Positions 11,261 to 39,676 of a stretch of DNA of 43,038 nucleotides are shown piece after piece. The stretch lies in contig DATKAB010000026.1 of the NCBI GenBank assembly GCA_035498555.1, forward strand, positions 1 to 43,038, given 5' to 3'. The translations under genes and the position numbers were made by a program. The stretch's first letter is position 1. Each line of letters starts with the position of its first letter. This DNA is from Candidatus Sulfotelmatobacter sp. Its GTDB lineage: Bacteria > Eisenbacteria > RBG-16-71-46. The notes under the pieces are model-generated. The model had not been told where the DNA came from and made no database searches. It saw only the letters and a program-made list of their open reading frames with translations.

Positions 11261-11965
11261 TCAGGGCTCGACGAACTTGTAGCCGACCTTGTGCACCGCG
11301 ACGATGAACGGCTGCGCGAACCCCGCCCCCAGCTTGGACCGCAGGTTGGAGACGTGGGTGTCCACGGTGCGCGTGGTGACGCCCAGCTCCTCGTCGACGC
11401 CCCAGATCTCCTCGAGCAGCTCTTCGCGACTCACGGTGCGACCGCGGTGCTCGATCAGATACTTGAGCAGCTCGAACTCCTTGAACGAGAGCGCCACCGC
11501 CTTGCCGGTCTTGTAGACCTCGCGCGGCTCGAAGCGCACCTCGACGTCGCCGAACTTGTAGATCGTGGGACCGGGCGCCGGGCCGGTGGCCGGGCCGCGT
11601 TGGACCAGACGGCGCACGCGCGCGACCAGCTCCTTGATGCCGAACGGCTTGGTCACGTAGTCGTCGGCGCCGAGGTCGAAGCCCTTGAGGATGTCGGCCT
11701 CGAAGTTGCGCGCGGTCATCACCAGCACCGGGATGTCGCGGTGGCGCTGCCGCAGCTCCTTCAGAACCGTGAAGCCGTCCTTCTCGGGCAGCATGATGTC
11801 GAGCAGCACCACGTCGGGCTTCTGCTTGAGGGCCATGCGCAGGCCCTCCTGCCCGTTCTTCGCGGTCAGCACCTCGTAGCCTTCGTAGCGGAAATTGTGA
11901 GCGAGTCCATCGAGCAGACCTTCCTCGTCCTCCACGATCAACACGCGCTTGGCAGCGGTTGTCAC
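11261..11965 (-). CDS. OmpR/PhoB-family response regulator
   Basis: Cytoplasmic DNA-binding regulator of a two-component system. The receiver domain (about 6-115, counted from GTG 11965) has the acidic pair E12/D13, the phospho-acceptor D56 in VVLLDIMLP, T84 and K106 in DYVTKPFG. A short Pro/Gly linker precedes the winged-helix output domain with LSFKEFELLKYLIEHRGRTV and the recognition-helix region TRTVDTHVSNLRSKL. I prefer the GTG at 11965 because AAGGAGG (11977-11971) lies five bases upstream. An ATG at 11980 overlaps the kinase stop as ATGA and would add MKEEN. Either way it is coupled to the kinase gene upstream, its evident partner. Targets cannot be read from the sequence. Confidence 0.95.
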   Translation of the reverse strand: MTTAAKRVLIVEDEEGLLDGLAHNFRYEGYEVLTAKNGQEGLRMALKQKPDVVLLDIMLPEKDGFTVLKELRQRHRDIPVLVMTARNFEADILKGFDLGADDYVTKPFGIKELVARVRRLVQRGPATGPAPGPTIYKFGDVEVRFEPREVYKTGKAVALSFKEFELLKYLIEHRGRTVSREELLEEIWGVDEELGVTTRTVDTHVSNLRSKLGAGFAQPFIVAVHKVGYKFVEP

Positions 11966-11976
11966 GTTTTCCTCCT

Positions 11977-13683
11977 TCATGAACTCACGGGAGCGCGGTC
12001 GTGGGCCCGCGCCGCATCCGCCCCGTCGGTGGCCGGCAGTACCAGCGTAAACACGCTTCCCCCTCCTGGATTCGGTGTCACCTCGACGCGCCCGTGATGA
12101 GCGCGCATGATTTGCTGCACCAGCGAAAGCCCGAGCCCGGCGCCTTTGGCATCGTGCTGCAGGCCGTGATCGATTCTCACGAACTTCTCGAAGATGCGCC
12201 GGCGGTCACCGGGCGCCACCCCGATTCCGTGGTCGGCCACCGATAGCTGCACCGTGCCGTTGGATGCGGCCGCCGTCACCCGGATGTAACGGTCATCTTT
12301 CGAGTACTTGACCGCGTTGTCCAGCAGGTTGAGCAGGCAGTGAGACAGGGCGATCGCGTCTCCCCGCACGCGCGGAAGCCCGTCGGGAAGATCGGTTTCC
12401 ACCCGGAAGCCGGCATGCTCCAGTCGCGGGCGGAAGTTTTCCAGCGTTTCCTGAGCGATTTGCCGCACGTCCACCTGCGTCATCTTGAGAATATGGTGTC
12501 CCGACTCGAAGCGCGCCAGATCGAGAATGTTGTCCACCAGCCGGGTCAGCTTCTGGGTCTCGCGCTCGATCGTGGAAAGGAAGCGCTCGCTCTCGTCGGG
12601 ACTGTTGAACCGGCGCATCTGCAAGGTCTCGACCGCCAGACGGATCAGCGCGATCGGTGTCTTCAGCTCGTGCGTCACGTTCGATACGAAGCTGGCCTTC
12701 ATTTGTGCGAGCTCGAGCTGCCGGACGGTATAGCGGTAACCAAACAGCATCGCCGCCAGGATCACCAGCCCCATCAGGGTGATGATGAAGATCTCGAGCG
12801 AGATGAAGCGCAGCGTCCACGCCGCGCCGGCGCTCGAGGTGGGCGCCACGCGCACCACGTAGCGCTCGAACGGACCCGAAAGTCGCTCCATGCGGGCGGT
12901 CTTGAGATCGGCCGGCTCGCGTACCGCGCCCACGCGCTCGCCGCCCGGACCGAACACCTCGATGCTGACGTGGCGGATCGACTCGATCCCGCCGTAGATG
13001 CGCTCGTCGGCCGGGATCTTTTCCTGCACCACCTCATCGAGGTGGCGCTGGATGAACACGCCGGGGTCCACCCACCAGCCGCCCGCGCCGATGATGTCGT
13101 TGGTGCCGTTGCGGAGCAGCCAGCCCACGAAGTACTGGCCGCGCCGATGCCCCTCGCCGGGCGCGTAGGCCAGCACCTGGGACTCCACCAGCAGCACCGA
13201 CAGCCCTTCGACTTCCGACACCGGCACGAAATGCCAGCCCGCGAATCCGTCGCCGTTCATCGGCACCGCCGCCAGCGCCAGCCCCGGATCGGCACCGGCG
13301 CGAATCGCGGGATCCACCGGCTCGAGCGCGGCGCGCAGATGTGAGTTCAGCTCGAGCTCGAATGCCTCGGCGACCTGCTGTCCGACATACGAGTCGTAGG
13401 TGGCACTGTCGGTCTCGACGCTGCGCGTGACGCGCTGCGTGAGGTAGATGGCGAGCCCCGCCAGGATCACGGCCGGAATCGCCACCGCGCTCAACACCGC
13501 GGTGAGCACGCGGCGGCGGAACGGAATGTTGGCAAGCGCGTTCTTGATGCGCTCGCGCAGCGGCGCCCCCTCGGGCGCCGTGCCGGGCGCACCCGATCGC
13601 GCGCGCGCCTCGGCCAGCGCCGCTTCGAGTGCGGCGCGGCGGGCGCTCTCGGCTGCCGGATTCATCGAGTCGGAAGTCGCCAT
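11977..13683 (-). CDS. Sensor histidine kinase
   Basis: Membrane sensor kinase of 568 residues from the ATG at 13683; a TTG two codons earlier is the alternative. A cytoplasmic Ala/Arg-rich N-terminal tail of about 55 residues precedes the first membrane helix (about 57-80). A periplasmic sensing domain of about 220 residues (85-300), rich in aromatic and charged positions but of no family I can name, ends at the second helix (about 302-326). Almost directly after it, with no room for a HAMP domain, comes the HisKA helix with the phospho-acceptor H338 in NVTHELKTP. The ATPase domain has the N box NLLDNAVKYS, the G1 box DHGIGV and the G2 box GAGLGLSLV. It is transcribed with the response regulator, whose start overlaps its stop, and lies downstream of the cysteine-rich protein gene. 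Confidence 0.94.
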   Translation of the reverse strand: MATSDSMNPAAESARRAALEAALAEARARSGAPGTAPEGAPLRERIKNALANIPFRRRVLTAVLSAVAIPAVILAGLAIYLTQRVTRSVETDSATYDSYVGQQVAEAFELELNSHLRAALEPVDPAIRAGADPGLALAAVPMNGDGFAGWHFVPVSEVEGLSVLLVESQVLAYAPGEGHRRGQYFVGWLLRNGTNDIIGAGGWWVDPGVFIQRHLDEVVQEKIPADERIYGGIESIRHVSIEVFGPGGERVGAVREPADLKTARMERLSGPFERYVVRVAPTSSAGAAWTLRFISLEIFIITLMGLVILAAMLFGYRYTVRQLELAQMKASFVSNVTHELKTPIALIRLAVETLQMRRFNSPDESERFLSTIERETQKLTRLVDNILDLARFESGHHILKMTQVDVRQIAQETLENFRPRLEHAGFRVETDLPDGLPRVRGDAIALSHCLLNLLDNAVKYSKDDRYIRVTAAASNGTVQLSVADHGIGVAPGDRRRIFEKFVRIDHGLQHDAKGAGLGLSLVQQIMRAHHGRVEVTPNPGGGSVFTLVLPATDGADAARAHDRAPVSS

Positions 13684-13691
13684 CAGCAAAT

Positions 13692-13721
13692 CGGGCCGGC
13701 CCGCGCGAGCGAGCCGGCCCG
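13692..13721 (-). terminator. Strong GC hairpin between the cysteine-rich gene and the sensor kinase
   Basis: CGGGCCGGC (13692-13700) and GCCGGCCCG (13713-13721) form a perfect nine-base stem with a 12-base loop. On the transcribed minus strand it follows the stop of the cysteine-rich gene and ends about nine bases before the kinase start, followed by ATTTG rather than a real T-run. It may end most transcripts or act as an attenuator setting a lower level of kinase and regulator. Confidence 0.55.
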
Positions 13722-13738: not shown

Positions 13739-14473
13739 TCAACTCTTGGCGCGGATCGTGTTCACTCCGGCCAGCTCGTGGATCCTGGCCACGACCGCCG
13801 GATCGTTCGAGGTCATGAGCGTGAGGCATCCGCCGTCGATGTTGACGACCTCGCGGGTGAGCTTACCGCTTGCCGCGGCGCCGCGCAGGGCGCGGCAATT
13901 GTCGCAGAGCTTGGCGTCCTCGCCGGCCGAGGCGAACATGACGCCGGCCTCCTTGTGCCGCGCCATTGCCGACTGGACCGCCCGCACGCGCGCGGGATCG
14001 GTGGTGTAGACGTACATCACGCCATTCTTGAGCGGCACCACCTGGACCACCGCGCCGAGGCTGCGCATCTCCTGCTCGCAGGCGTCGAGATCGTGGCAGT
14101 AGGTACAGGTAGTGTGCTGCGCGCTGGCGGTGGCGCCGTTCGCGCCCGAGCACATGTGCTGGGCGGTCGCGGCGTGCGCCGAGCAGTTCGCGCCGGCGGT
14201 CGCGGCGTTCTTCCCGGTGCACGCGCCGCCCGACATGCTCGCGGCGGTGGCCGACGCTCCGCTCCTTCCCGAGCAGTGGTCGAACGCGGCGGTGATGGCC
14301 GCGGTCGAGGCGCCCTTCGCGCCATGGGGGCAGACCGAAGCCGAGCAGGCGGTGTTCGAGGCGGCGGCGCCGGCACCCTGGGCCTTCTGCTGGTCACAGG
14401 CGAACGCGGCGACGACCCCGGCGCACAGGCCGAGCACGGTGAAAGCAGGAACAAGGGGTCGCACTAGCTTCAC
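13739..14473 (-). CDS. Cysteine-rich exported protein with a duplicated CxxC domain
   Basis: A 244-residue exported protein of no family I recognise. The GTG at 14473 has GGAGGTGC just upstream. A signal sequence (VPAFTVLGLCAGVVAAFA) ends before C26, a weak lipobox-like site. Residues about 38-120 are Ala/Gly/Ser/Thr-rich with six cysteines (43, 48, 67, 85, 97, 108) in degenerate repeats of the form Cys-Ser/Thr-Gly-x-x-x-Ala. Two related domains follow. The first starts with CxxC at 123/126 and contains NGVMYVYTTDPARV; the second starts with CxxC at 190/193 and contains GGCLTLMTSNDPAVV. In all, 13 cysteines remain after the signal, plus several His and Met, which suggests metal or thiol chemistry in the periplasm. 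It precedes the sensor kinase on the same strand and may report to it; that link is inference. Confidence 0.8.
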   Translation of the reverse strand: MKLVRPLVPAFTVLGLCAGVVAAFACDQQKAQGAGAAASNTACSASVCPHGAKGASTAAITAAFDHCSGRSGASATAASMSGGACTGKNAATAGANCSAHAATAQHMCSGANGATASAQHTTCTYCHDLDACEQEMRSLGAVVQVVPLKNGVMYVYTTDPARVRAVQSAMARHKEAGVMFASAGEDAKLCDNCRALRGAAASGKLTREVVNIDGGCLTLMTSNDPAVVARIHELAGVNTIRAKS

Positions 14474-14663
14474 GAGGCACCTCCAGGCACGCCAGCCGCG
14501 CCCGGGGTGGGCGCCGCTCAAGGGGAAGATCGGCCGAACCGAGGAAAAGCCTGTCATCAGACTCTTCGAATCGTGTCAGGGAAGGGCAAAAATCGCGGAC
14601 CGGCCAACCGGTGGGGGCCCCGCCGGCGTGCGTTTCGCCCGCTCGGGACCATCGCCCCGGGCG

Positions 14664-14706: not shown

Positions 14707-15891
14707 ATGAGCCCCAAGCGCCGAAAGAAGTCCGCGCCCGCCGACGCTCGCTTGCTCTTCATCCTGTTCGCCGGCGCCCTCCTGTTGTTCCTCGGCGGCG
14801 AGCTGGTCCGCTATCTGCGCTCGGATTCGGGCGCCATTCTGATCGCGCGCAGCCTCGGCCTCGGCGATCGCTCACGCCTCACCCAGATCCTCTCGCGCGA
14901 CGTGCGGCGAGGGCTGGCAGCGGTCAACGTGCCACGCGACAGCGTGCGCGAGGAGCCGCCGCGCGGTTCGGGCACGAGCGTGCACTGGCGGATCGGGATC
15001 GCGCCCGAGGCCTCGCTGATCCAGGCCAACCGTGCGATCAGCGTAGCCGTCGCCCAGGGCGGCGGTCGGGTGTTCTCGGGGCGCGAGCGTCCAACGCCGC
15101 ACGGCGGATCCGAGCTGACGCTGGTGGTGGGTGTGGGCCGCGATCGAACTCACGAACTGCTGCTGGCGCGTGCGGCGCGGCCGGAAGAGAAGAGTGAGGC
15201 TCACGCGGCGCGCATCGCGATCGTGCTGTACGGACTCGGCGATGACGAGGCCACGGCGAAGCAGGCGCTCGCGATCCCGCGTCCGTTCGCGGTGGTGCTG
15301 CCGCCCGACACCCGTTCCAGCGAAGCCCTGTTCCACGAGGCGCACGCGCGCGGCCGCGAAGTCGTGCTCCACCTGCCGCTCGAGCCCATCAACTATCCTC
15401 AGGTCAGCCCCGGGCCCGGCGCGATCCTCGTCACCATGAAGCCGGCGCGCATCGCGAGCGAGGTGCGACGCGAGATCGCGCAGGCGCGGCCGGTGGTGGC
15501 GGTGGCCAATCTCATGGGATCGCTCGCCACCCAGGACATGACGGTGATGACGGCGGTGTACGAGGAGCTGCGGCGCGAGCGCTTGCCGTTCATTCATCTC
15601 ACGCCGGTCGCAGGCGCGGTGTGCCGCCCGCTGGCGTCACAGCTCGGCGTGGTCTACGCCGAGCCCGACCTGGTGCTCGACGGCGAAGCACGGGCCGAGA
15701 AGCCGGCCGGGCTCGACCGGGCCTGGCGCCATCTGGTCGAGAACACGCCGCCCGGCGGAACCCGTGTGGTGTGGTTGCGCGCCACCGCCACCAGCCGCGG
15801 GTGGCTCGAGAAGTCGCTCGATCCGAAGCGTCTCGACGGGGTCGACCTGGTTCCGCTCTCGGCGGTGCTGAAGCGGCCGCCCGAGCTGTAG
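14707..15891 (+). CDS. Divergent polysaccharide deacetylase family protein (YibQ-like)
   Basis: A 394-residue protein with one N-terminal membrane anchor (about residues 15-35, LLFILFAGALLLFLGGELV) after a very basic cytoplasmic start (SPKRRKKS). The C-terminal half belongs to the divergent polysaccharide deacetylase family (YibQ/DUF610), recognised by IAIVLYGLGDDEATAKQAL, the phrase PFAVVLPPDTRSSEA, and EVVLHLPLEPINYPQVSPGPGAI. The family is a NodB-like barrel found near cell-envelope peptidase genes. The usual DDxG motif appears as GDDEA shifted after the glycine, so the metal site may be altered. The middle region (about 60-160) has no obvious relatives. It probably acts in the periplasm on peptidoglycan or glycan. 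The gene is alone, diverging from the cysteine-rich gene. Confidence 0.85.
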   Translation: MSPKRRKKSAPADARLLFILFAGALLLFLGGELVRYLRSDSGAILIARSLGLGDRSRLTQILSRDVRRGLAAVNVPRDSVREEPPRGSGTSVHWRIGIAPEASLIQANRAISVAVAQGGGRVFSGRERPTPHGGSELTLVVGVGRDRTHELLLARAARPEEKSEAHAARIAIVLYGLGDDEATAKQALAIPRPFAVVLPPDTRSSEALFHEAHARGREVVLHLPLEPINYPQVSPGPGAILVTMKPARIASEVRREIAQARPVVAVANLMGSLATQDMTVMTAVYEELRRERLPFIHLTPVAGAVCRPLASQLGVVYAEPDLVLDGEARAEKPAGLDRAWRHLVENTPPGGTRVVWLRATATSRGWLEKSLDPKRLDGVDLVPLSAVLKRPPEL

Positions 15892-18128: not shown

Positions 18129-19037
18129 ATGACGCTCCGCGACCTCGCCGGCGCGGCGCGCGACGCGGCGGTGCGATTCGCACGCGCGTTCGCGGCCGAC
18201 CCCCGCCACTACCAGATGTCGGTGCAGGCGGCGCTCCTGCTCTTTGGGCTAGCCGCGCTCGACTTCGAGGTCACCGCGGCGCGCGCCGGGCTCACGATCA
18301 GCGCCTGCCTCGCCTCGCAATGGCTGGGCTCGCGCTTCGTGCGCCCGGCACCATTCGAGTGGCGCAGCGCCCTGATCTCGGGCACCGGGCTGTGCCTGCT
18401 GCTGCGCACCGATTCGGCGGCGCTGGCGGTCGCGACCTGCGCGCTCAGCGTGCTCAGCAAATTCTTCATAAGAGTCAACGGCAAACACCTGTTCAACCCC
18501 ACCTGTTTTGGGCTCGCCGCGATGATGGCGCTCCGTCAGGGCATCTGGGTGTCGGCGGGGCAGTGGGGCCACGCGGCGCTCGTCGGGTTCGCCATCGGAT
18601 CGCTCGGTTCGCTGGTGGTGACGCGCGCCGCACGCGCCGACGTCAGCCTCGGCTTCCTGGGTGCCTGGGCGGCGCTGCTGTTCGGTCGCGCCGCCTGGCT
18701 CGGGCAGCCATGGGCCGCGCCGCTCCACGTGCTGAGCAACGGCTCGGTGCTGTTGTTCGCGTTCTTCATGATTTCCGACCCCAGGACCACACCCGATTCC
18801 CGTCTCGGCCGACTGATCTTCGTGACTGCGGTGGCGGTCGGCGCGGGCGTGGTGCAATTCGCGCTCTATCGAACCAACGCGTTGATCTGGTCGCTGGCGG
18901 CTTGCGCTCCGCTGGTTCCGCTGCTCGATCGCTGGCTGCCGGGAGCGCGCCACGCATGGCGCAGGGACGCGAACTCCTCGCACTCGAAAGGGGGCTCTCA
19001 TGCTTCGCTTCCCACGCTGGTTCCGGCACGCGCCTGA
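18129..19037 (+). CDS. Solitary RnfD/NqrB-like membrane protein
   Basis: A 302-residue polytopic inner-membrane protein of about eight to ten helices, resembling RnfD/NqrB, the flavin- and quinone-handling membrane subunit of ion-pumping electron-transfer complexes. Family landmarks are GKHLFNPTCFGL at 118-129 (RnfD: HIFNPAAFGL-type) and FFMISDPRTTPDSRLGR at 212-228 (RnfD: MATDP.TSP-type). I do not find the Ser/Gly-Ala-Thr flavinylation motif that carries covalent FMN in RnfD and NqrB, and no other rnf or nqr gene is nearby. It is therefore not part of a local Rnf operon. Its 3' end overlaps the DUF2330 gene by 38 bases, implying co-expression. A TATTAG box lies just before the ATG; a ribosome binding site is not clear. 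Confidence 0.83.
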   Translation: MTLRDLAGAARDAAVRFARAFAADPRHYQMSVQAALLLFGLAALDFEVTAARAGLTISACLASQWLGSRFVRPAPFEWRSALISGTGLCLLLRTDSAALAVATCALSVLSKFFIRVNGKHLFNPTCFGLAAMMALRQGIWVSAGQWGHAALVGFAIGSLGSLVVTRAARADVSLGFLGAWAALLFGRAAWLGQPWAAPLHVLSNGSVLLFAFFMISDPRTTPDSRLGRLIFVTAVAVGAGVVQFALYRTNALIWSLAACAPLVPLLDRWLPGARHAWRRDANSSHSKGGSHASLPTLVPARA

Positions 19038-34005: not shown

Positions 34006-34830
34006 ATGCGCATCGCCTACCACGTCATGTCGGCTCCCGGGCCCCTCGGTCTCCTGTTCCTCGCCGCGACCGAGAACGGCCTGCGCTACCTCGAGTTCCT
34101 CGACAAGCGCAGCATCAAGCGCGCGGTGGATTCGCACCGTGACGAGAATCCCGGCGCCGAATGGGAAGCGTCGTTGCTCGACCTCAAGCCGGTCGTCGAT
34201 CAGCTCGAGGGTTACTTCTGCGGCGCGCTGACGCAATTCGACGTGGCGCTCGATCCGGTCGGCTCGGAATTCCAGCTCCAGGTGTGGAACGCGCTGCGCG
34301 AGATTCCCTACGGCGAGACTCGCACCTACGGGCAGATCGCGAAGGCCGTGCATCAGCCCAGGGCGGCGCGGGCCATCGGGCTCGCCAACCATCAGAATCC
34401 GATCGCCATCATCATTCCCTGCCACCGCGTGATCGGCTCGGACGGCAGCATGGTCGGCTACGGCGGCGGCGTGCCGCGCAAGCGCTGGCTGCTCGGCCAC
34501 GAAGCGCACTTCGCGCGGCTGAGCGGCGCCTCGCTCGATCTGTTCGCCGGCGCCGGCGTCGCGCCCACCAATCGGGTCGCCTCCGGCGACGGGCCGCCGC
34601 TCGGCGTCGCCCGGCTCACCTCGGCGACCCAGGCGGAGCCCTCGCGCGCGAGTCGCGCGGGCGCGGCCTCGCGCCCCCCAACCGCTTCACGCGCCGCGAC
34701 TCGTACGCCGGCTCGGCCGGCGGCCTCCTCCACCTCCAAGACTTCACCCAGGGCCGGCGTGAAGGCGGCCGCGCGTGGCTCGACCGGGAGCCGAACGCGG
34801 GTCGCGAAGACCAAACGATCTGGGCGCTGA
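34006..34830 (+). CDS. ogt: O6-methylguanine-DNA methyltransferase with a long basic C-terminal tail
   Basis: DNA-repair protein that transfers alkyl groups from O6-alkylguanine in DNA to its own cysteine. Residues 1-175 form a complete enzyme: an N-terminal ribonuclease-like domain (GPLGLLFLAATENGLRYLEF), the DNA-binding helix pair (PYGETRTYGQIAKAV and RAARAIGLANHQNP, with the flipping arginine) and the acceptor C139 in IPCHRVIG, followed by GYGGGVPRKRWLL. From about residue 180 a further 95 residues are added, almost entirely Ala, Arg, Ser, Thr, Pro and Lys (ASRPPTASRAATRTPARPA), like a histone H1 tail. The family normally ends near residue 170-180. It is not a shift in frame: the frame stays open to the TGA at 34828. 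The tail probably binds DNA non-specifically. Confidence 0.94.
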   Translation: MRIAYHVMSAPGPLGLLFLAATENGLRYLEFLDKRSIKRAVDSHRDENPGAEWEASLLDLKPVVDQLEGYFCGALTQFDVALDPVGSEFQLQVWNALREIPYGETRTYGQIAKAVHQPRAARAIGLANHQNPIAIIIPCHRVIGSDGSMVGYGGGVPRKRWLLGHEAHFARLSGASLDLFAGAGVAPTNRVASGDGPPLGVARLTSATQAEPSRASRAGAASRPPTASRAATRTPARPAASSTSKTSPRAGVKAAARGSTGSRTRVAKTKRSGR

Positions 34831-34852
34831 GCGCCGTACTCCGAGGTTCATC

Positions 34853-35842
34853 ATGCGTAGGAAGCCTCTCTTCCGGTCCGCGGTCGCCGTCGTGCTCGCG
34901 CTTTCCTGCTGGTCGCCGGCGTTCGCCGGGCAGGCGACCGTCTTCGTCGGCGCCGGCGGGCTCAGCTTCACTCCCAGTACGCTGAGCGCCAACGTCGGCG
35001 ATCAGGTGGTGTGGGTCTGGTCGGGCAGCAACCACACCGTGACCAGCGGCACGGACGGAAGCTCAGGCGGAACCGGGGTATTTCGCAGCACGGGCAGTGC
35101 CGCAGGCCAGCCCGCCGGCACGGGTTTCTTCTGGAAGGTGGCGGGAAGCGGATCCGTGCCCTATTACTGCTTTCCGCATTTCCCCACCATGGTCGGCACC
35201 CTCAACATCAATCCCGCCGGGACCGCGAGCGTCGCGAACTACCGCATCACCGAGGTCGAATTCGCCGGAGCCGCGGGCGCGGATCGCGTCCAGATCACCA
35301 ACCTCGGAACGAACGGGGACTTCCTGGACCTTTTCCGAGTCACCCCCAACAGCACCGCGACGACGCTGGGCACGGGGATCTTCCTCGGCGCCAATTCGAG
35401 TCTGACCCTTCACCTCAACGCCAGCGGCACCAATGACGCGACCAACATCTATCTGCCGAGCATCGGCGACATGGGTGCCGCGGGATCGTTCGCGCTCTAC
35501 GTACCCAACAGTACGACCGGCCCGGGGGGCTCGACGGCGCCCGCGTCACTCACCGACGCCAATCAGATGGTGGACTACGTCGAGTGGGGCGTCGCCGGTC
35601 AGGCGGCGCAGCCGAACCGCGCCACCGCGGTGACCGCCGGGCTCTGGAACACCGGCGACGTCGTCGACGTCACCGATCTGCCGAATGGCGGCAGCGGCTA
35701 CTCGATCACGTTCTGCGGTGCGGCCACCGACCACGGCGCCAGTTCCTGGCAGAAGGCGCATCCGAACTTCGGCACCTCGCTGCTCTGCACCACCGCGGCG
35801 CGCACTTCGACCTGGGGAAGGCTGAAGGCGCTGTACCGCTAG
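34853..35842 (+). CDS. Exported cupredoxin (plastocyanin-like) protein with a lamin-tail-like C-terminal domain
   Basis: A 329-residue exported protein. The signal peptide (AVAVVLALSCWSPAFA) is followed by a blue-copper domain at about 27-121. It begins with VFVGAGGLSFTPSTLSANVGD and has the type 1 copper ligands H61 in SNHTV, then C106, H109 and M113 in YYCFPHFPTM. After a short linker, residues about 128-300 (NYRITEVEFAGAAGADRVQI, NLGTNGDFLDLFRVTP, ANQMVDYVEWG) look like a lamin-tail domain, an Ig-like module common in secreted bacterial proteins. Two late cysteines may form a disulfide. It may carry electrons or copper in the periplasm or at the surface. The ATG has GAGG upstream. There is no FlgD-like tail. 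The stop codon shares bases with the thiL stop on the other strand. Confidence 0.87.
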   Translation: MRRKPLFRSAVAVVLALSCWSPAFAGQATVFVGAGGLSFTPSTLSANVGDQVVWVWSGSNHTVTSGTDGSSGGTGVFRSTGSAAGQPAGTGFFWKVAGSGSVPYYCFPHFPTMVGTLNINPAGTASVANYRITEVEFAGAAGADRVQITNLGTNGDFLDLFRVTPNSTATTLGTGIFLGANSSLTLHLNASGTNDATNIYLPSIGDMGAAGSFALYVPNSTTGPGGSTAPASLTDANQMVDYVEWGVAGQAAQPNRATAVTAGLWNTGDVVDVTDLPNGGSGYSITFCGAATDHGASSWQKAHPNFGTSLLCTTAARTSTWGRLKALYR

Positions 35843-36851: not shown

Positions 36852-38246
36852 CTATCGGATGTCCTTGACCGACAGCGGCCCGAGCCCGGCCAGCGCGCTC
36901 TTCCCCAGATCCGGCGGGGTCACCACCAGGATCTTCAGCTCGTCGGTGCAGAAGTAGGCCTTGAGCACGCGGCGGCAGTCCTCGAGCGTCACTGCGTTCA
37001 CGCGGTCGGCAAAGGTCTGCAGGTAGTCGGGCGGAAGACCATAGAACTCGACGTCGAGCAGTTGCTCGGCCAGCTCGTCCGGCGCCTGCAGTCCGAGCGG
37101 GAACTGGCCGGCCAGATAGCGATGCGCCTTGTCGACCTCTTCGGCCGTCGGGCCGTCGTCGCGCAACTTCTTGATCACCTCGATCACGGCGTCGATCGTC
37201 TGGCGCAAGGTCTCGTTGCGCGTGAACGTGCTGATCACGTACTGGCCGCTGTTCCGCTGCATCCGAAACTCGCTTCGAATCGAATAGGTGAGGCCGCGCT
37301 GCACGCGGATCTCGTTCACGAGCCGCGACGTGAACCCGCCGCCCAGGATCGTATTCGCGACCAGTACCGGGAAATAGTCGGGGTGATTGCGCGCCAGCGC
37401 CGGACAGGCGAAGCGGATCTGGCTCTGCGTGGCCTCGGGGCGCGAGACCACCCGCACTTCGCGCTTCGGCGCCGATGCCAGCGGCGGATAGGGCTGCGAC
37501 CTCTGGCCGCCCTGCGACTTCCAGTCCTTGAATGCAGCCTCGAGCGCGGGAATCACGACCTTCGGCTCGACGTCGCCGACCACCGCGAGCAGCGCGTTGT
37601 CGGGCGCGAAATTGCGGCGGTGGAACGCGATCACGTCGTCGCGCGTCATCGCGCTCACCGACGCCTCCCAGCCGAGCACCGGATGGCCGAGCGGATGCGC
37701 GCCCATCAGGAACGGAAGCAGCTCGCGATCCGCCACCTCTTCCGGGTCGTCGGCGGCGCTGGCGATCTCGCCGAGCGCCTCGGACCGCCTGCGCTCGAAC
37801 TCCTCGACGGGGAAAGTGGGGCGCGCCGCGACGTCACGCAGCAGCTCGAGCCCGACCGCGAAGTCCTTCTTGAGCACCTCGCACGAGACCCGGATGCGCT
37901 CCTCGCCGCTCTCGGACTCGAGCGTCCCGCCGACGTAGGCGATGTCCTCGGCGATCTGCCGGGCACTGCGCTCGCCCGCCCCCTGCGTCAGGAGCTCGGC
38001 GGTCAGATGAGCGAGCCCCTCCTTCCCCGGGGGATCACCGACCGAGCCGGCTTTGACTTCGAGCAGCATGTCGACCAGCGGCAACCGCGCGGTCGGCATG
38101 ATCAGCACGGTGAGTCCGTTCCTGAGCGTGGTGCGCGTCGCCGGCGGCAGCGTGAGCGCCCCGGCGCCGGCGACCGCCGGAAGCGCGGAGGCGAGCGCGA
38201 TGCCGAGCGCCAGCACGCCGGCGCGCGCCTGACTCCCGCGCCTCAT
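36852..38246 (-). CDS. M16-family peptidase, non-catalytic subunit
   Basis: A 464-residue exported M16 protein with a signal peptide (VLALGIALASALPAVAGAGA) and two M16 halves. At the place of the zinc motif HxxEH it has GLAHLTAELL: the first His (H80) remains, but Glu-His is replaced by Ala-Glu, so it cannot bind zinc in the normal way. The C-terminal half keeps the substrate-positioning Arg and Tyr (GGGFTSRLVNEIRVQRGLTYS). This is the pattern of the non-catalytic partner of heterodimeric M16B peptidases. Its ATG overlaps the stop of the catalytic gene upstream (ATGA, 38243-38246), as expected for subunits made in equal amounts. It is probably periplasmic and degrades peptides. Confidence 0.92.
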   Translation of the reverse strand: MRRGSQARAGVLALGIALASALPAVAGAGALTLPPATRTTLRNGLTVLIMPTARLPLVDMLLEVKAGSVGDPPGKEGLAHLTAELLTQGAGERSARQIAEDIAYVGGTLESESGEERIRVSCEVLKKDFAVGLELLRDVAARPTFPVEEFERRRSEALGEIASAADDPEEVADRELLPFLMGAHPLGHPVLGWEASVSAMTRDDVIAFHRRNFAPDNALLAVVGDVEPKVVIPALEAAFKDWKSQGGQRSQPYPPLASAPKREVRVVSRPEATQSQIRFACPALARNHPDYFPVLVANTILGGGFTSRLVNEIRVQRGLTYSIRSEFRMQRNSGQYVISTFTRNETLRQTIDAVIEVIKKLRDDGPTAEEVDKAHRYLAGQFPLGLQAPDELAEQLLDVEFYGLPPDYLQTFADRVNAVTLEDCRRVLKAYFCTDELKILVVTPPDLGKSALAGLGPLSVKDIR

Positions 38247-39676
38247 GGCTTCGCCTCGTCGCCGGCAGCGCTCGAGTCGGGCTCCGGCACCAGCACGGCG
38301 ACGGTGCGCCGGCGCGAATCGAACAACTGGCGCGCCACGCGGCGGCAGTCCTCGGCGGTCACGGCGCGATAGCGACCCACGGTCTGGAACATGGCGCGGT
38401 AGTCACCGAACAGATGCTCGTAACTCGCGAGCATTTCGCCGACGCCGTTGTTGGTCTTGAGCGATCGCACGAAGTCGGCCTCGGCGAGATTCTTCGCCTT
38501 CTCCAGCTCGCGCGGGGCCGGCCCGTCCTTGGCGAAGGCCGCCAGTGCCGAATCCAGCGCCGCCTGTCCGTCCGCCGCGCTCCGTCCAGGCTTCATCTCG
38601 ACCGAGACCGTGAACAACCCCGGTTGCAGCCGGGTCCGGTATTCGCTCGAAACGTCGAGCGCCATCTGCCGCTCGTAGACCAGCGTCTGATGCAGTCGCG
38701 AGGACTCGCCGTCCGAGAGCAGGATCGAAAGCAGATGGAGCACGTAGAGATCCGGGCTCTGGACGCCGCCGGCCTTGTAGCCTTCGACGAAAGTCTGGGT
38801 TTCGGCCGGATAACGCACCTCGACCCGCCGCTCCCCGCGCTGCTCGGGCTCGGAGTCCACCGGCTGGGGCGGAGCCGGCTGCGAGGGGATCCCGCCGAAC
38901 GCCGCTTTGATCTGAGCCAGCGCCGCAGCGGTCTGGAAATCCCCGACCAGCACCAGAATGCAGTTGTTGGGCGCGTAGTAGGTACGGAAGTACTCGACCA
39001 TCTCTTCGCGAGGAATGCGCTCGAGATCCTTCATCCATCCCACCACCGGCCAGTGATAGGGGGAGGCGACGAACGCGCCCGCCCACAGCGCCTCGTCGAG
39101 CATGCCGCTCACGTCGTTGTCCACGCGCAGTCGGCGCTCCTCCTTCACGACCTCGATCTCGCTCTTCAGCTGCTCGGGCAGCAGCGAGAGCGCCGCCATG
39201 CGATCCGAGTCGAGTCGCAACGGCACGTCGAGGTGCTCGGACGCGACCTCTTCGTAGTAGCCGGTCATGTCGCGGTCGGTGAAGGCGTTCGAGTAGCCGC
39301 CGTTCGACTCGAGGATCCGGTCGTACTCCTTGGGCGGAACGTTCTTCGAGCCGTTGAACATCATGTGCTCGAAGAAGTGCGAGAGCCCGGTGATGCCCGG
39401 GCGCTCGTTGCGGGAGCCCACGCGGTACCACTGCCAGAACGCGATCGCCGGGACCGCGTGGTCCTCGTGAGTCAGCACCACCAGGCCGTTGTCGAGCACC
39501 TGCCGTTCGACCTTGAAGCGCTCGGGGCTGATCGCCGCCGTCGCCTGGGCGGGCGGCGCGGGAGCCGGGCGTTTGGCGGCCGACGCCGCCCGGCAGGCCG
39601 CGAGCGCGATCGCCAGCGCGGCGATCACGAGCAGGATGCGAGGCGCCGCGCAACTCCGACCACGGGTGTCGATCAA
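38243..39676 (-). CDS. M16-family zinc peptidase, catalytic subunit (lipoprotein)
   Basis: A 477-residue exported peptidase. The signal ends in the lipobox ALAAC with C28, so it is probably membrane-anchored. The inverted zinc motif H100-F-F-E103-H104 and the third ligand in the segment EVVKEERRL (about 174-182) are intact, as are the flanking ITGLSHFFEHMMFNGS and APNNCILVLVGDF. It pairs with the following gene, which lacks the zinc site. The start is a TTG at 39676, supported by CCTCCC on the plus strand (GGGAGG on the coding strand) eight bases upstream and by the signal peptide. No ATG lies close by. The gene heads a run with the second M16 gene and thiL, diverging from the HlyD-like gene. 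Confidence 0.93.
   Translation of the reverse strand: MIDTRGRSCAAPRILLVIAALAIALAACRAASAAKRPAPAPPAQATAAISPERFKVERQVLDNGLVVLTHEDHAVPAIAFWQWYRVGSRNERPGITGLSHFFEHMMFNGSKNVPPKEYDRILESNGGYSNAFTDRDMTGYYEEVASEHLDVPLRLDSDRMAALSLLPEQLKSEIEVVKEERRLRVDNDVSGMLDEALWAGAFVASPYHWPVVGWMKDLERIPREEMVEYFRTYYAPNNCILVLVGDFQTAAALAQIKAAFGGIPSQPAPPQPVDSEPEQRGERRVEVRYPAETQTFVEGYKAGGVQSPDLYVLHLLSILLSDGESSRLHQTLVYERQMALDVSSEYRTRLQPGLFTVSVEMKPGRSAADGQAALDSALAAFAKDGPAPRELEKAKNLAEADFVRSLKTNNGVGEMLASYEHLFGDYRAMFQTVGRYRAVTAEDCRRVARQLFDSRRRTVAVLVPEPDSSAAGDEAKP

Follow-up and report, generated by a model that had tools for sequence, protein, structure and literature searches.

Within the stretch of DNA analysed here (43,038 nucleotides, hereafter the window), a minus-strand gene encodes a small cysteine-rich exported protein for which the name CysP (gene cysP) is coined, and genes for a histidine kinase and a response regulator follow on the same strand (Table 1). 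cysP reads from 14473 to 13739 and opens with a GTG codon preceded by a good Shine-Dalgarno sequence (GGAGGTGCCTCGTG), while an upstream ATG (14557) is an unlikely start because it lies inside a conserved promoter element. It is a real gene, with orthologues in all 19 family genomes in which it is readable, 40–58% identity across the family, and 23 invariant alignment columns. CysP contains 14 cysteines, one of them in the signal peptide and 13 past the predicted cleavage site (AFA↓CD, of the pattern AxA↓CD), which agrees with the count of thirteen in the original prediction. Most relatives share the AxA↓C pattern and two carry Gly at +1, for which reason the signal peptide is read as a type I (signal peptidase I) substrate rather than as a lipobox, and CysP would accordingly be located in the periplasm. 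An identity as a bacterial lipoprotein of the NlpE kind was rejected on the same residues, there being no lipobox before the first Cys.

Table 1. Coordinates of the cysP locus in the window, and exported relatives of CysP in other families
Feature	Position	Strand	Description
cysP	13739..14473	-	244 aa; signal peptide 1-25, Cys-rich linker 26-122, tandem CxxC domain ~119-244
Tandem CxxC domain (two α-β-β-α halves)	13742..14119	-	CxxC residues 123/126 and 190/193; from alignment, model and half-half similarity
Promoter element TTTGC-N7-TGACA-N17-TGACA (11-bp frame)	14551..14590	-	Once per genome
[AG]CCGAT block, possible -10 region	14528..14535 (approximate)	-	~18 bases after last TGACA
G+C-rich hairpin	13693..13720	-	Directly 3' of cysP stop codon; in nearly all relatives
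Histidine kinase	11977..13689	-	Extracytoplasmic dCache-like sensor (~88-298), HisKA, HATPase_c; listed start TTG, alternative ATG 13683
Response regulator	11261..11980	-	Receiver and winged-helix (OmpR/PhoB type)
Polysaccharide deacetylase	14707..15891	+	Divergent, conserved neighbour across the promoter region; not counted in the module
Distant exported relatives in other Eisenbacteria families	G026: L053/L054; G023: L055		

The C-terminal part of CysP is a duplicated domain, as had been proposed from the sequence of this one protein. Both CxxC motifs recognised at the outset (residues 123/126 and 190/193) are invariant in the 19 relatives, and an hhalign comparison of the two halves, each represented by a profile of 19 sequences, gave P 2.4e-4 with a score of 23.4, far outside the null obtained by shuffling the half 2 columns 200 times (mean 9.7, SD 2.0, maximum 16.6). 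The alignment of the halves keeps the CxxC motif, the hairpin turn (NG/GG) and a T..DP segment in register, the last corresponding to the Thr/Ser-Asp-Pro segment that the original prediction had picked out in each half. An AlphaFold2 model built on the domain alignment (mean pLDDT 88, pTM 0.76) shows a helix-strand-strand-helix arrangement in each half, with the first helix beginning at the CxxC in both. The two halves are thus homologous. A c-type cytochrome, or haem c binding, was rejected as an explanation for the motif, since the sequence CTYCH occurs in the window protein only and its His is not conserved.

The expectation that no known family has this plan stood up to comparison with Pfam, NCBIfam, the PDB and viral structures. 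CysP itself found no significant match in Pfam or NCBIfam, nor did the 19 aligned domains and two distant relatives in Pfam; sequence comparison with the PDB returned chance matches only (best E 0.3), and a fold search of the CysP model against the PDB and viral structures gave nothing at E <= 1e-3. No LTXXQ/Spy (CpxP/Spy/ZraP) Pfam match was found in CysP or in any of the 19 relatives. Among CxxC families, HMA, thioredoxin, TusA and glutaredoxin were considered and set aside, the best scores being those of single members (TusA E 0.057, Glutaredoxin E 0.17), with no PDB fold at E <= 1e-3. CysP represents a real, undescribed protein family.

Between the signal peptide and the first CxxC lies a linker whose properties were derived from 18 genomes. 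It varies in length from 64 to 202 residues and holds 2–13 Cys, in keeping with the anticipated variation in Cys number among homologues, and its composition (Ala 31%, Cys 6.9%, Met 4.6%, His 3.0%) is nearly devoid of aromatic residues. The unit Cys-Ser/Thr-Gly-x-x-x-Ala, originally read as its repeat, is not conserved as such; instead, the 18 linkers are enriched over their shuffled counterparts in CxxH (25 vs 4.0, present in 14 of 18 linkers vs 3.6), CxxxM (29 vs 6.5) and C-x7-C (28 vs 7.3), as well as in CxM (19 vs 6.6), and contain no CxxC (0 vs 7.7), although these counts overstate independence, with copies related by duplication within each protein and the proteins by descent. Because His and Met stand at fixed distances from Cys, the pattern favours soft-metal binding by the linker over pure disulfide or redox chemistry. 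One linker, in genome G014, is nearly Cys-free, with two Cys only, and is not of low complexity, and for this reason the domain pair is the essential conserved part of CysP. The two-part plan of an exported protein with a linker followed by a domain pair is supported. As to the two roles suggested with it, a periplasmic metal store or a thiol-redox sensor, metal binding is favoured by the CxxH and Met content of the linker, whereas a simple store would not suffice to account for the conservation, since G014 has lost most linker Cys and yet retains the CxxC pair as well as the operon with kinase and regulator.

The distribution of CysP was followed by several searches. A profile search found the domain in 19 of the 20 genomes of this Candidatus Eisenbacteria family. 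The twentieth (G006) was rejected as a cysP-free genome, its contig ending inside the gene, where the promoter element is followed by the signal peptide in the matching frame, and its match at L020 (E 0.008) is due to chance and is not a true cysP. Contigs end at or inside cysP in 3 of the 20 genomes (L002, L004, L103); perhaps the low-complexity Cys/Ala-rich stretch breaks assembly at this point, and cysP is easily missed in metagenome-assembled genomes (MAGs). A single-sequence scan of genome contigs gave no CysP relative, and an alignment scan gave 14 loci, all in Candidatus Eisenbacteria MAGs; such a pattern scan reaches close relatives only, so that a restriction to Eisenbacteria is not implied. 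The sole genome of another family within the order is without the domain. The class comprises 47 genomes in total, and elsewhere in it the profile detected one more distant relative, in G026 (E 1.9e-7), which as a query in turn found a relative in G023 (E 1.5e-25) and the window CysP (E 6e-6). The G026 and G023 proteins resemble CysP in their signal peptide and in a tandem domain with both CxxC pairs kept, but they lack the Cys-rich linker and are Met-rich (9–14%). They are also unlinked to the kinase found next to cysP, to which G026 has no match and G023 kinase-core matches on other contigs only. No plasmid relatives of these two distant homologues were found, nor were relatives found on viral contigs.

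Within the family, cysP is closely tied to the kinase and regulator. The order cysP-kinase-regulator, on one strand, occurs in 14 of 14 named MAG loci, with the divergent polysaccharide deacetylase gene upstream wherever the contig reaches far enough, and it is kept across 13 genera. Each of the 19 genomes in which cysP is readable contains the kinase (including its extracytoplasmic part) and the regulator, and no others do; the remaining 27 members of the class are without this pair, giving kinase-core matches only and no regulator at E <= 1e-60. In being exported, and in being both encoded and conserved with one kinase-regulator pair, CysP resembles the accessory proteins of two-component systems. 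A comparison of distance matrices (mirror-tree) did not place CysP closer to the sensor than to the kinase core. The regulator is 82–93% identical across the family, compared with 46–58% for the kinase (extracytoplasmic part included) and the range given above for CysP; so high a degree of conservation is unusual and would befit a regulator whose targets are numerous or essential. Its identification as the phosphate regulator PhoB was dismissed, its score (187 bits) lying far below the NCBIfam equivalog cutoff of 296.

The predicted model of the kinase sensor (pLDDT 87) matches the double-Cache domains of KinD (E 1.7e-5) and CqsR (E 1.3e-4), although the TM scores are modest (0.39–0.44). With this predicted fold, together with HisKA and HATPase_c, the protein can be classed as a dCache histidine kinase. 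The KinD and CqsR domains bind small molecules, and the module sensor contains no conserved Cys.

Neither a metal transporter or metal efflux gene nor a Dsb gene lies beside the operon. Farther along the window, a gene for a plastocyanin/azurin-type copper-binding domain (34775-35842, plus strand; PF00127, E 1.3e-6) is found ~20 kb from cysP. An NQR2/RnfD-type membrane domain (18129-19037, plus strand; PF03116, E 4.4e-9) is encoded between glycogen debranching enzyme and DUF2330 genes, with no further Rnf/Nqr gene among its scanned neighbours, and two adjacent M16 peptidase genes (36852-38246 and 38243-39676, minus strand) overlap at their ends, as in paired M16 proteases.

Conservation extends to the non-coding sequences on either side of cysP. 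The register of the promoter element is fixed among relatives, in which it begins 110–136 bases before the cysP start codon, with its two TGACA units 22 bp apart, and the [AG]CCGAT block follows it in most of them. A search at <=1 mismatch gave a single copy per genome in 16 family genomes and none in the reversed control, and even at <=3 mismatches a longer form has no second copy in the genome of the window; no other gene carries an element of this type, whether at <=3 mismatches in its own genome or at <=1 mismatch in the family. Pho boxes have an 11-bp period, and since the units of the element likewise sit in an 11-bp, PhoB-like frame, the analogy suggests that the regulator of the module autoregulates through this site. 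Pho boxes consist of direct repeats to which PhoB binds when phosphorylated (PMC10294691). The element may instead be a promoter recognised by a specialised sigma factor. The strong hairpin, whose sequence pattern is single within the window, is possibly a partial terminator or mRNA stabiliser, and may allow more CysP than kinase to be made. Elsewhere in these genomes, a near-identical palindromic motif (TGACATCAnnnTGATATCATAATGACA), unlike the cysP element, was seen at L133 (G000:C127:9532-9558) and L129 (G015:C184:8493-8519), ahead of a gene region that shows ~79% identity between two genera, and may be the site of another regulator.

These observations make it somewhat probable, in our judgement, that a two-component system has in CysP an exported third component, one that carries metal or thiol information to the kinase. 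Linkage and conservation are what the data show; we infer the periplasmic location of CysP, its contact with the kinase, its ligand, the sign of its control and the binding of the element by the regulator, and envisage the following course. cysP is probably co-transcribed with the dCache-type histidine kinase and the PhoB/OmpR-type regulator from one promoter, and this operon promoter is probably controlled by the regulator itself. In the periplasm, the two CxxC half-domains, aided by the CxxH-, Met- and Cys-containing linker, would bind a soft metal, most likely copper or zinc, or change their thiol state. The sensor domain of the kinase would then read the loaded or the unloaded form of CysP, which would most likely exert feedback control, much as CpxP or ZraP does.

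Each of the known systems resembles this proposal in part. CpxP is a periplasmic inhibitor of CpxA (PMC6737893), and in the CpxP-CpxA-CpxR envelope stress module, too, the exported protein is small and its gene lies next to those of a kinase and an OmpR-type regulator. CpxP is regulated by the very system that it modulates, as is proposed for CysP, but it is Spy-related and has no tandem CxxC domain, and cpxP is divergent from cpxRA whereas cysP leads its operon. ZraP, according to the references in PMC7657598, is a periplasmic accessory protein linked to zinc that represses its own kinase system, the zinc-responsive ZraSR, and in this it is like the CysP proposed here; ZraR, in contrast, is a sigma-54-dependent regulator, unlike the OmpR/PhoB type of the module, and no similarity is detectable between the CysP and ZraP proteins. 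In NlpE, Cys residues report the periplasmic redox state (PMC6737893) and signal it to a kinase, as those of CysP may do, but NlpE is an outer-membrane lipoprotein, while CysP has a predicted type I signal peptide and a different predicted fold. CysP belongs to none of the CpxP, ZraP and NlpE families.

Other explanations of the locus have to be set against the accessory role. CysP could be an output of the system, a periplasmic metallothionein-like buffer induced by the kinase and regulator under metal stress and with no action on the kinase. The wealth of CxxH, CxxxM and Cys in the linker agrees with such a buffer, as do the position of the genome's sole promoter element upstream of cysP and a hairpin that could favour an excess of CysP. 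We nevertheless regard it as unlikely: a storage protein need not hold two CxxC pairs and 23 columns invariant, G014 keeps the domain pair with hardly any linker Cys, and no metal efflux gene is nearby. A signalling role is likelier than storage because cysP shares an operon with a kinase and regulator, has a private promoter element, and co-occurs completely with its partners. The same domain architecture might serve as an envelope thiol-redox sensor or oxidoreductase, in which cycling of the CxxC motifs between dithiol and disulfide reports disulfide stress to the kinase. NlpE sets a precedent, and the start of a helix at the CxxC of both halves, in alignment and model, speaks for it; but the linker Cys avoid CxxC and pair with His and Met, and no thioredoxin-like fold or family match was found, making this reading quite improbable.

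The confinement of the linkage to one bacterial family is the reason that it may represent a single inherited arrangement, and it could be argued that CysP is a mere neighbour with an unrelated envelope function, its operon position a product of the history of one lineage, the more so as its relatives outside the family do not accompany this kinase. Against this stand the gene order kept across 13 genera despite the divergence of cysP, and the conservation of both promoter element and hairpin, so that coincidental neighbourhood seems very unlikely. The accessory role itself has points against it, the strongest being this same confinement, the mirror-tree comparison with its lack of preference for the sensor, and the distant relatives from other families that are unlinked to this kinase. 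The sensor also lacks conserved Cys, and the operon has no metal transporter or Dsb gene beside it. To these may be added that dCache sensors usually bind small molecules.

Taken at its fullest, and here we are rather doubtful, the proposal is of an undescribed three-component envelope system, in which a dCache kinase would have as its ligand a secreted protein that combines a new tandem α-β-β-α dual-CxxC fold with a metal-binding tail, rich in CxxH and Met and variable in length, a sensor of the small-molecule type thus reading a protein that carries metal or redox information, and in which the whole would be autoregulated through a once-per-genome promoter element. CysP in any case adds a domain family that has no coverage in Pfam, NCBIfam or the PDB. 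With no more than three genes and one promoter element, the module is compact and self-contained, and it is found throughout a family of uncultured bacteria, which makes it directly testable. If the proposal is right, these bacteria would possess a further, unrelated answer to the problem that CpxP, ZraP and NlpE each address, that of how an envelope protein informs a sensor kinase about metals or thiol status.
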